Of a stretch of 64,000 bases of DNA, positions 2,446-51,821 are shown one piece after another. A program made the position numbers and the translations under genes. Within the stretch, counting starts at the first letter, position 1. Each line of letters opens with the position of its first letter. This DNA comes from Flavivirga jejuensis. GTDB lineage: Bacteria > Bacteroidota > Bacteroidia > Flavobacteriales > Flavobacteriaceae. The stretch spans positions 124,001-188,000 of the forward strand of contig NZ_JAUOEL010000004.1 of the NCBI RefSeq assembly GCF_030540765.1, given 5' to 3'. A model generated the notes under the pieces. It searched no databases. It saw only the letters and a list, made by a program, of their open reading frames with translations, and was not told where the DNA came from.

Positions 2446-2454
2446 TCTAAAATC

Positions 2455-2590
2455 TAAAAATTTTTCGACTCTTGGGTCGGGGTTTCCTATTACATCGTTC
2501 CTTTGGCGAAGTTAGAACTGCTTTTTTTTGGGGCAATTCTGGGTGAGGAAAAAATAATAAAATTCAAGGTTTTTTATTTAATTCGCCAAA
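2455..2590. repeat. Dispersed repeat family A, copy 1 (uninterrupted)
   Basis: The block from TCGGGGTTTCC through ATCGTTCCTTTGGCGAAG to GAACTGCTTTT and GGGTGAGGAAAAA aligns with the copy at 30421-31048 and, in its middle, with 43372-43430. It is the best empty-site reference for the insertion at 30481-30871. No coding potential is visible. Confidence 0.6.
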
Positions 2591-30420: not shown

Positions 30421-31048
30421 AATCTAAAGAATCCCTCGAGGCTCTGCGTCGGGGTTTCCGATGTCACCTCTCTTTTGGAGCTACGGTGTACCCACAAATA
30501 TTGGAGTAGGAAAGCTATTTATAAATTTTTAAAGGCTCAAAAATAATCGTTAATAACAGACCATAGGGCAAGCCCAGACCCTTCGTAAGAATAAAGAACA
30601 AAATTTCGAAACCCAGGAGCATAGCCTTGGATGCTGTGATGGGGCGACGCGAAATTTTGTTCTTGGTTCTTCTTAAGTGCAGCGCGAGAAGAAATTCCTT
30701 CGAAGGGGTGTCTTTTCTCCTGCTTGCCGTCTTTTAGGCAGGTTTGTTACTTTTCTTTGGACGAGCAAAGAAATCGAAGATTCATGAACTCCTATTTATC
30801 AAATAAGATTTGTGAACTAAAAGTAAATAATAAAATAGAAACCTTCTTTAAAAGATGTGGGTACACCGTAGCTCTTTTGGAGAAGTCATAACTGCCTTTT
30901 TTGGCAGTTCTGGGAGAGGAAAAATACAGAATTTTGGTTTTTGACCTTTTTAGGTCAAAACCTTGTGGGAAACTTGATTAGGTATGAAACCAGCGAAATA
31001 CCTCTATAGCTCTGCAGAGGATAGTTGGTTTCAAGAAATTCTTTATTT
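30421..31048. repeat. Dispersed repeat family A, copy 2, split by a mobile element
   Basis: The left part (30421-30480: GGCTCTGCGTCGGGGTTTCC, ATGTCACCTCTC) and right part (30872-31048: AGTCATAACTGCC, GAATTTTGGTTTTTGACC, GAAACCAGCGAAATACC, TTTCAAGAAATTCTTTATTT) form one family A copy separated by the element at 30481-30871. The right part shares a stretch of about 38 identical bases with the copy at 51340-51597. Confidence 0.75.
30481..30871. mobile_element. 391-bp non-autonomous element with 16-bp terminal inverted repeats
   Basis: The ends CTACGGTGTACCCACA (30481-30496) and TGTGGGTACACCGTAG (30856-30871) are perfect inverted repeats. The flanks 30470-30480 and 30872-30882 are both CTCTTTTGGAG, an 11-bp direct repeat of target-duplication type. 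An internal 15-bp perfect inverted repeat (AAGAACAAAATTTCG at 30594-30608 and its complement at 30650-30664) could form a hairpin. No transposase is encoded inside. The insert splits a repeat A copy. Confidence 0.85.
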
Positions 31049-43339: not shown

Positions 43340-43520
43340 TAGTCGGCTCTTGACTATTTTTAATTATATCGTTCCTTTAGAGCCACCAGAACTGCTTTTT
43401 TGCTGTTCTGAGTGAGGCAAAACCTGTGCGCAACATGATTGGGTATGAAACTGGCGAAACATCCCTATAGTCTGTTTGCCAGCAAAGGTGGAGCTAATTA
43501 GTTTCAAGAATTTTTTATTC
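43340..43520. repeat. Dispersed repeat family A, copy 3
   Basis: TATCGTTCCTTTAGAGCC, ACTGCTTTTTTGCTGTTCTG, GTGAGGCAAAACC, GGGTATGAAACTGGCGAAAC and TTTCAAGAATTTTTTATTC match the order of the copy at 30421-31048. It starts just after the PLP decarboxylase gene and ends close to the guaA promoter. Confidence 0.65.
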
Positions 43521-50612: not shown

Positions 50613-51587
50613 TTTTGATTGTTTCTTTATTTGATTGTTTTTTTTATAGAAAGTTTAATGTGTTAGATATAAAAATCTATGTATTATTATTTATAAGCAG
50701 TGTTTTTGTGTATACTGAGTGAAGGATGAGTGACGAGACACCTCATAAAGATGAGATGCCTCCTCAAAAGCTACGCTTCATACCTTCAAATAAAATATAT
50801 TTTGTTTTCGATAGTCTTCGGAATGACACAATTTTATTATTTATATAACAAATTATTCATTATCAATATTCAATATATCGAACTCCTCTACATAAACAAG
50901 TGCTCTTAGTATATGAGTGTTGCATAAGTTATACGCACATTTTAGTCCGCAACTCGTATGCGTAATGCTATATTAATTTCGAATTTTAGTAATAACTGCG
51001 TTATGAGTTGTTTATCGGTCAAACCTCTTGTTTGTTTTTCATAAGGTCTGAAATTAAATCATAATGAGGTAAGTAAGTTAATGGAAATAATAATTTATTG
51101 TTTAAACAATTGCTTAAAAAGTTATTAATATAAAAACAGCTGGGGGTGTTTGATCAAAAATATTAAGAAGTTGTATCCAAAAAAAGATCATATTTTAGAT
51201 ATGGTTATTTTGTTTTGAAACCTGCTGAATGAAATTTTCTAAAAAATTTCTTAGAAAAATACTTCAGAAGTATTTATCCTTAATTGGCTTTATAGCCTCC
51301 TATTTGAGATAATTATTCTGAAGTATTAGTCTCTAATCGAAAAGAATTCCCTTTGGCTTTGCCTCAAGCTGGAAAAGTTAGGGTTTCTGTTGAAATTGCC
51401 ATTCCCTTGAAATCGGAAATCTAAATACAGAATTTTGGTTTTTGACCTTTTTAGGTCAAAATAAAACCAGCGAAATAAGGCTATGGCTACTGCCTCAAGC
51501 CCAATGTTATTAAGTTAAGGAAATTTGTTCTGTTTTGTCACATTGAGCTGTCAGCAAAGGCAAGGAAAGTTGGTTACAAGAAATTCT
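50613..51587. repeat. 975-bp gap with repeat B (copy 5) and repeat A (copy 4)
   Basis: There is no gene. Repeat B-like copy at about 50718-50829 (GATGAGTGACGAGACACC, CTACGCTTCATACC, near-palindrome AAATAAAATATATTTTGTTT at 50788-50807). Repeat A copy 4 at about 51340-51597 (GAATTTTGGTTTTTGACC, AAAACCAGCGAAATA, TGGTTACAAGAAATTC) overlaps the stop codon of the small Cys-rich gene. Between them (50830-51339) I see only AT-rich DNA with an AGAAAAATACTTCAGAAGTATTT hairpin-like stretch near 51250-51280. Confidence 0.65.
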
Positions 51588-51821
51588 TTATTTGCACTCA
51601 CATTCTTCTGGTGTACAAGCATATGTACCATCATCGCATAGTACGACAGGATCATCATTATCGCAATCTCCAATTGCATGACCATAGTCATCATAGAAAC
51701 CTGTTGTAATACAATCGTCAAAATCAGTTACTTCACTTTTTACCGACCGAAAGCTGTTCATGATAAAGATAACGAGGCAAAGACCTAAACCTGTTGCAAT
51801 TAACTTAAATTTGTTTGTCAT
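51588..51821 (-). CDS. Small exported or membrane-anchored Cys-rich acidic peptide
   Basis: 77 residues. An N-terminal signal or anchor (ATGLGLCLVIFIMNSF, about 9-24) is followed by a 50-residue acidic mature part with six cysteines (DDC, GDC, VLC, YAC, EEC, CEC) and many Asp/Glu. The size, anchor and cysteine-rich end recall the NVEALA-type small exported proteins of Bacteroidota, but the NVEALA motif is absent, so I do not assign it. Three disulfides or metal binding are possible. A pair of 10-bp palindromes lies just upstream, which suggests tight regulation. Confidence 0.7.
   Translation of the reverse strand: MTNKFKLIATGLGLCLVIFIMNSFRSVKSEVTDFDDCITTGFYDDYGHAIGDCDNDDPVVLCDDGTYACTPEECECK

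Follow-up and report, generated by a model that had tools for sequence, protein, structure and literature searches.

The window analysed here is a stretch of 64,000 nucleotides from the Flavivirga jejuensis genome (G000:C28:124001-188000; own genome G000, 6.0 Mb). By our own reading of its sequence, two divergent genes border a site at which a short transposon, a MITE, is nested in a copy of another repeat and itself encloses a structured repeat, for which we use our own name, R element. The features of the site are the following:

30421-30480 and 30883 to about 31050 (outer limits approximate), plus strand: host repeat A, split by the MITE; its joined flanks align elsewhere, and it is absent at the syntenic sites L021 and L022
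30470-30480, plus strand: target-site duplication, left copy CTCTTTTGGAG, from the sequence
30481-30871, plus strand: MITE of 391 bp without transposase, from other copies and from ends in common with an intact IS4-family element
30481-30496, plus strand: left terminal inverted repeat CTACGGTGTACCCACA, from the sequence
30577-30712, plus strand: R element, a three-way junction, from model R2 (100.1 bits) and covariation
30718-30742, plus strand: degenerate palindrome CCTGCC...GGCAGG, situated after the junction and before the tail hairpin, from the sequence
30752-30773, plus strand: R tail hairpin TTTCTTTG-GACGAG-CAAAGAAA, shorter than in most other copies
30856-30871, minus strand: right terminal inverted repeat, the exact complement of CTACGGTGTACCCACA, from the sequence
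30872-30882, plus strand: target-site duplication, right copy CTCTTTTGGAG, from the sequence

The two ends of the MITE match exactly (16/16; the chance of this at two given ends is 4^-16) and so do the copies of the flanking duplication (11/11 bp), which confirms the 391-bp element with perfect 16-bp terminal inverted repeats and an 11-bp duplication that the initial annotation had delimited. Its statement that no transposase is encoded is borne out by the longest stop-free stretch in the 391 bp, which at 77 codons leaves no room for one. The internal hairpin described there does exist, with arms at 30587-30608 and 30650-30671 (22 nt, 91%), and belongs to a larger fold. Owing to GAG and CTC in the flanks, the window sequence alone would also permit 19-bp ends with a 5-bp duplication. 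This delimitation is ruled out by the other copies, in which the outer flanks vary (CAG, TAG, AGC) and the element end nevertheless stays constant at CTACGG or a near match.

In the own genome, 36 stretches match the 391 bp in whole or in part. End matches with at most three mismatches number 39, compared with 23 for a reversed control, and 30 of the 39 have 0-2 mismatches. Within the genus, MITE matches occur in 11 of 12 genomes; the best match in G005 is weak (E 5e-4), so the MITE core itself is evident in 10 of the 12. A search of plasmids returned no match for the MITE. Duplications were surveyed at 63 loci from the own genome and the genus, elements with more than five mismatches over both ends being uncounted. 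Among the 17 both-ended elements, seven have perfect duplications of 9-11 bp and two have duplications with one mismatch, while eight, including the intact IS described below, are without a well-matching duplication. Thus the further copies with the same 16-bp ends, several with duplications of their own, that had been predicted from the window are present. AG terminates 40 of 53 distinct outer flanks, and the consensus of the target flanks resembles the palindrome CTGCCGGCAG; these flanks also resemble the palindrome at 30718-30742 inside the MITE. Since members of the IS4 family, like this MITE group, make duplications of about 10 bp (PMC2266710, in its available portion), the 11-bp duplication, at first thought longer than usual, is ordinary.

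A full-length relative with a transposase had likewise been predicted, and is found on contig C2 of the same genome (G000:C2:6728-8074, equivalent to L072:2729-4075). This intact partner IS is 1347 bp long with both 16-bp ends exact. Its ORF encodes 436 aa that score 263.9 bits with the NCBIfam IS4-family model NF033590 (cutoff 160) and show resemblance to the Tn5 transposase among solved structures (E 3e-23). The Y(2)R(3)E(6)K motif is present as YGARWYIEQLFRILK from residue 290, and by our own reading the DDE residues are D91, D199 and E297. The partner is like the Tn5/IS50-like elements of the IS4 family in its DDE and YREK motifs and in having one ORF, whereas the window's element differs from that family in having no transposase; the D199-E297 spacing of 97 lies slightly below the 100-150 given in the available portion of PMC2266710. 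The flanks of the only complete IS copy disagree (2 of 7 bases match as a duplication), which suggests rearrangement between IS copies. A second copy is truncated by the end of contig C28. Because the complete copy has no matching duplication and the second is cut by its contig, transposition of the partner itself is unseen. Both IS copies adjoin the palindrome within a broken MITE core, so that this palindrome either served as a target or was the site of one insertion that was copied later. On the left, the flank of the intact IS is the MITE-core palindrome; on the right, the IS adjoins an ORF that by eye resembles a conjugation coupling protein.

Short, without a transposase, flanked by a duplication, dispersed in copies and sharing its ends with the partner, the stretch 30481-30871 is a MITE, a point we regard as settled. 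It is an ordinary member of its kind; what is new is a MITE loaded with a structured repeat of this type.

Several relatives of these elements were observed in passing. A second IS4-like transposase gene, broken by one stop and of 40-42% identity, lies at G000:C31:370459-371811 (L095, L096). Another MITE subfamily, about 318 bp long, combines the same ends with a different interior (L073:776-1094, L074:787-1104 and L076:1156 onwards); L073 (319 bp) and L074 (318 bp) show no match to the MITE core, and L074 has a perfect 10-bp duplication. At L116:1377-1975 (G004:C156) a MITE adjoins another at its palindrome, in what looks like a self-nested insertion. In the congeneric genome G007 (contigs C15, C16, C17 and C26) the right arm of the MITE (query 291-341) has grown into tandem units of about 48 bp.

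When the MITE is removed, the joined flanks with one copy of the duplication align at 77% with window positions 2451-2553, in agreement with the uninterrupted copy that the initial annotation had placed near 2490. Further pieces of repeat A occur in the window at 43418-43474, 51423-51461 and 51563-51593. One scan identified two named species with a syntenic locus, Flavivirga aquimarina (L021) and F. rizhaonensis (L022). In the former, homology extends to window position 30423 and is found again from 31130, with 29 bases in place of 706 window bases, so that neither the MITE nor repeat A is present there; in the latter the corresponding stretch is also short (<100 bases). The proposed comparison of orthologous sites thus yields two that are free of the element, and host repeat A is missing from both as well. 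These sites fit nesting, yet no site at this locus carries repeat A only, and the empty form is a 77% paralogue. The initial picture of one mobile element inside another repeat holds, in that the MITE does lie in repeat A; repeat A itself, pieces of which are dispersed and which is absent at the syntenic sites, is at most a candidate mobile element.

The middle of the MITE has a conserved fold. Of the core matches, those that aligned over fewer than 140 bases or duplicated another sequence were set aside, and 35 remained; L004 and L108 were dropped before core alignment (33 copies), and L004, L108 and L116_6292 before a fold. The 33 aligned genus cores fold into a three-way junction in which 15 of 40 pairs have changed on both sides, with a covariation of 0.200 (shuffled, 0.111; slid versions, 0.073 at most). 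They have in common a long apical loop that short copies do not possess; this fits one origin of the genus cores, though some are without ends today. Both-side changes rise to 32 of 40 pairs in a model-fitted alignment, which by its making favours the fold. A MAFFT alignment of R copies from 59 genomes (one copy per genome, without those that have an additional palindrome behind the junction) was folded anew and gives 25 pairs, 20 of them changed on both sides, with 94.8% pairing versus 75.8% in shuffles. A palindrome similar to that at 30718-30742 occupies the same place in some R copies of G561, G596 and G598.

The distribution of this fold extends well beyond the MITE. A first fold model detects R in 19 of 149 genomes of the family, and a second, built from the matches of the first, in 103 of the 397 family genomes scanned, spread over 82 of 237 genera, and in 11 of the 12 genus genomes; R copies are here the best of score-ranked lists, with at most nine candidates per genome scored in the 397-genome scan. 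A phylum-wide spread is rejected: a phylum sample of 345 genomes yielded R, under strict filters, in four, and each of these belongs to the window's family. None of 148 R copies read outside the genus has a MITE end (at most three mismatches) within 600 bases, and 10 of the 33 genus cores have no recognisable end (at most four mismatches) within 400 bases, which means either that the core can move without these ends or that the ends have decayed. By eye, several of the nine R copies of G596 are alike in the element alone and have unrelated flanks, which makes R a repeat unit of its own. It has no visible terminal inverted repeats.

No Rfam 15 family covers R at 30577-30712; on the window, Rfam gives two weak matches at 30868-30975 and three weak ones elsewhere. 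On 20 R loci it gives eight matches at E<=5. Two of these are above cutoff and lie off R (Flavo-1 in L129, DUF805b in L126); of the six below cutoff, the one at L141 1483-1550 (25.5 bits against a cutoff of 75) overlaps R, and those in L133 and L128 reach an edge of it. R is thus ruled out as a known RNA in that no Rfam match lies over it at its cutoff, and one open-access literature library contained no description of it. A search with one R copy (L122) found no match in plasmids or phages. Two candidate movers were discarded. ORFs for GIY-YIG nucleases lie within 1.4 kb of just 4 of 156 R copies, and none of 28 Y1-transposase loci holds R at E<=0.01, which removes Y1/RAYT; a Y1 match is moreover absent in 4 of 12 genomes searched (G561, G540, G111 and G513), each with several R copies.

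The gene neighbourhood of R was described for 156 distinct copies among the best-scoring matches, from 60 genomes (54 outside the genus), with a crude ORF caller and with ORFs of fewer than 100 codons not counted as neighbours. Tryptophan (trp) biosynthesis genes lie within 1.5 kb of 17 of the 156 copies (14 genomes, 10 genera; tblastn), kynurenine genes near 4, phenylacetate genes near 5 and ZnuA near 5. The corresponding counts for 70 copies of a control repeat, Flavo-1, are 1, 0, 0 and 2. Fisher's test gives p 0.015 for the trp association of R versus Flavo-1, a value that overstates the significance because related genomes were treated as independent, and five of the 14 genomes belong to one genus, that of the window. 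The association was first recognised by eye from translations, and 10 plus 7 example proteins were checked by HMM; one of the ten, L200:322-1416, read as ACMSD, has no NCBIfam match. By eye, R occupies the trpE/G, trpG/D, trpD/C and trpB/A junctions in different genomes, with example genes borne out by HMM.

Its presence at such sites is erratic. In the trpB/trpA gap, five of the 12 genus genomes have R, and the other seven have a GIY-YIG ORF or what is left of one. By eye, the KMO/RidA junction of the same genomes has an intact R in one, R-like remnants in two, a gap of a few bases in five and other short inserts in four. This looks like the pattern of an insertable and erodible element, and is compatible with the presence or absence of a role. 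The small GIY-YIG nuclease ORF at trpB/trpA (PF01541, sequence read by eye; L264, L266, L268-L270, L272 and L274) is flanked by TTTCCG..CGGAAA-like palindromes and is shortened or broken in G000 and G008.

The simplest view of R is that of a structured repeat, selfish or tolerated, which the MITE captured. That it has no host role, its frequency near trp genes reflecting permissive landing sites, is a reading we consider probable: R comes and goes at both junctions just described, Flavo-1 is about equally frequent near ZnuA (2/70, versus 5/156 for R), and the gene downstream of R shows no bias in direction (82 of 150 co-directional, p 0.29). Less easily accommodated are the strict conservation of the fold, the adjacency to trp genes, which Flavo-1 does not match, and the orientation of the upstream gene, which is co-directional with R in 107 of 149 cases (p 1e-7; 46 of 56 with one copy per genome). 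Orientation, fold and trp bias leave room for a role.

A sense bias on both sides of R is ruled out, as it is confined to the upstream gene; such a bias would fit mRNA 3' ends as well as an intercistronic position. R could be an RNA element that serves operon mRNAs in regulation, in processing or at their 3' ends and that was spread in part by transposons, a possibility to which we give limited credence. It would account for the covariation in the 59-copy alignment, which was not fitted to the model, for the sense position of R behind the upstream gene, for its repeated presence within a single trp operon, at more than one junction, in G581, G659 and G685, and for the next ORF starting within about 50 bases of the nominal R end in 24 of the 63 copies flanked by co-directional genes. 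It is opposed by the lack of direction bias downstream and by the erratic presence between close species, nor is there a single ligand that would suit sites as different as trp, phenylacetate and zinc uptake, besides many unrelated ones. More speculatively, and in our estimate unlikely, R might represent an unrecognised class of mobile intercistronic RNA elements that lie in sense in operons, often those of tryptophan or aromatic-compound metabolism, act on mRNA ends, processing or translation, and were picked up by an IS4-type MITE for extra dispersal.

Whatever R does, the 391 bp are very probably a non-autonomous transposon for which a Tn5-like transposase of the IS4 family acts in trans, with a captured R element as cargo in the middle. 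A transposase like that encoded on contig C2 would bind the CTACGGTGTACCCACA ends, excise the MITE and join it to target strands about 11 bp apart, with a preference for short palindromes, and the duplication would arise by gap repair. The target here would have been the hairpin of a repeat A copy between the two divergent genes. R, as a structured intergenic repeat of the family, would have come between IS ends and then multiplied with the MITE. We infer the binding and the cut-and-paste in trans, as well as the capture, its time and any present activity, from comparison of sequences.

Two alternatives bear on this scheme. L001 and L003, two MITEs in repeat A on the window's contig, might represent one insertion that was copied together with its host repeat, in which case not all copies would stem from independent transpositions; some 33 kb separate them, both use the same repeat A hairpin, and they are 97% alike over their first 293 bases. 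This is improbable, because their duplications differ (CTCTTTTGGAG versus CTCCTTTGTAG), their repeat A flanks, 72-79% alike over the main aligned stretches, are more diverged than the MITEs, and the perfect duplications at other copies are of other sequence. That the three-way junction instead serves the transposon itself, for instance in transposase loading, and is no captured passenger would suit its maintenance by compensatory changes among the genus cores (15/40 pairs, 0.200 versus 0.111 shuffled) but is very improbable, since the same ends occur without the junction in the partner IS and the elements of about 318 bp, and the fold occurs without MITE ends in all 148 copies read outside the genus and 10 of 33 within it.

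The MITE and its presumed cargo can be compared with known systems. The BrickBuilt MITE of Porphyromonas gingivalis (PMC4596501, in its available portion) is likewise non-autonomous and intergenic with ends like those of a resident IS; one copy is nested with another MITE, as the window's MITE is in a repeat, and it has internal tandem units, as do some G007 relatives of the window's MITE. It differs in that its duplications are irregular and its ends similar to those of IS5-type elements, and the available portion of that source makes no mention of a family-wide conserved fold such as the window's MITE carries.

REP/RAYT and IS200/IS605-derived palindromic elements are hairpin-bearing units without terminal inverted repeats. 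R is like them in this respect, but REP/RAYT differs from R in the absence of R from all 28 Y1-transposase loci. The locus provides an IS4-type MITE and partner pair with readable duplications, and the MITE illustrates one route by which an R-type element reaches new places. It also led to a strongly covarying structured repeat that about one in three of the genera sampled in the family contains, that has no match in Rfam 15 and that lies repeatedly inside trp operons, where regulation versus tolerated selfish DNA is a testable question. Another comparison is with the Flavo-1 RNA (RF01705), also a structured intergenic repeat of Flavobacteriaceae, whose role is given as unclear in the available portion of PMC9723704. 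The two are separate stretches, Flavo-1 lying at 1288-1361 and R at 1501-1622 in L129. A Flavo-1 copy is also located near the trp genes of the own genome (G000:C1:983619-983691, L290).
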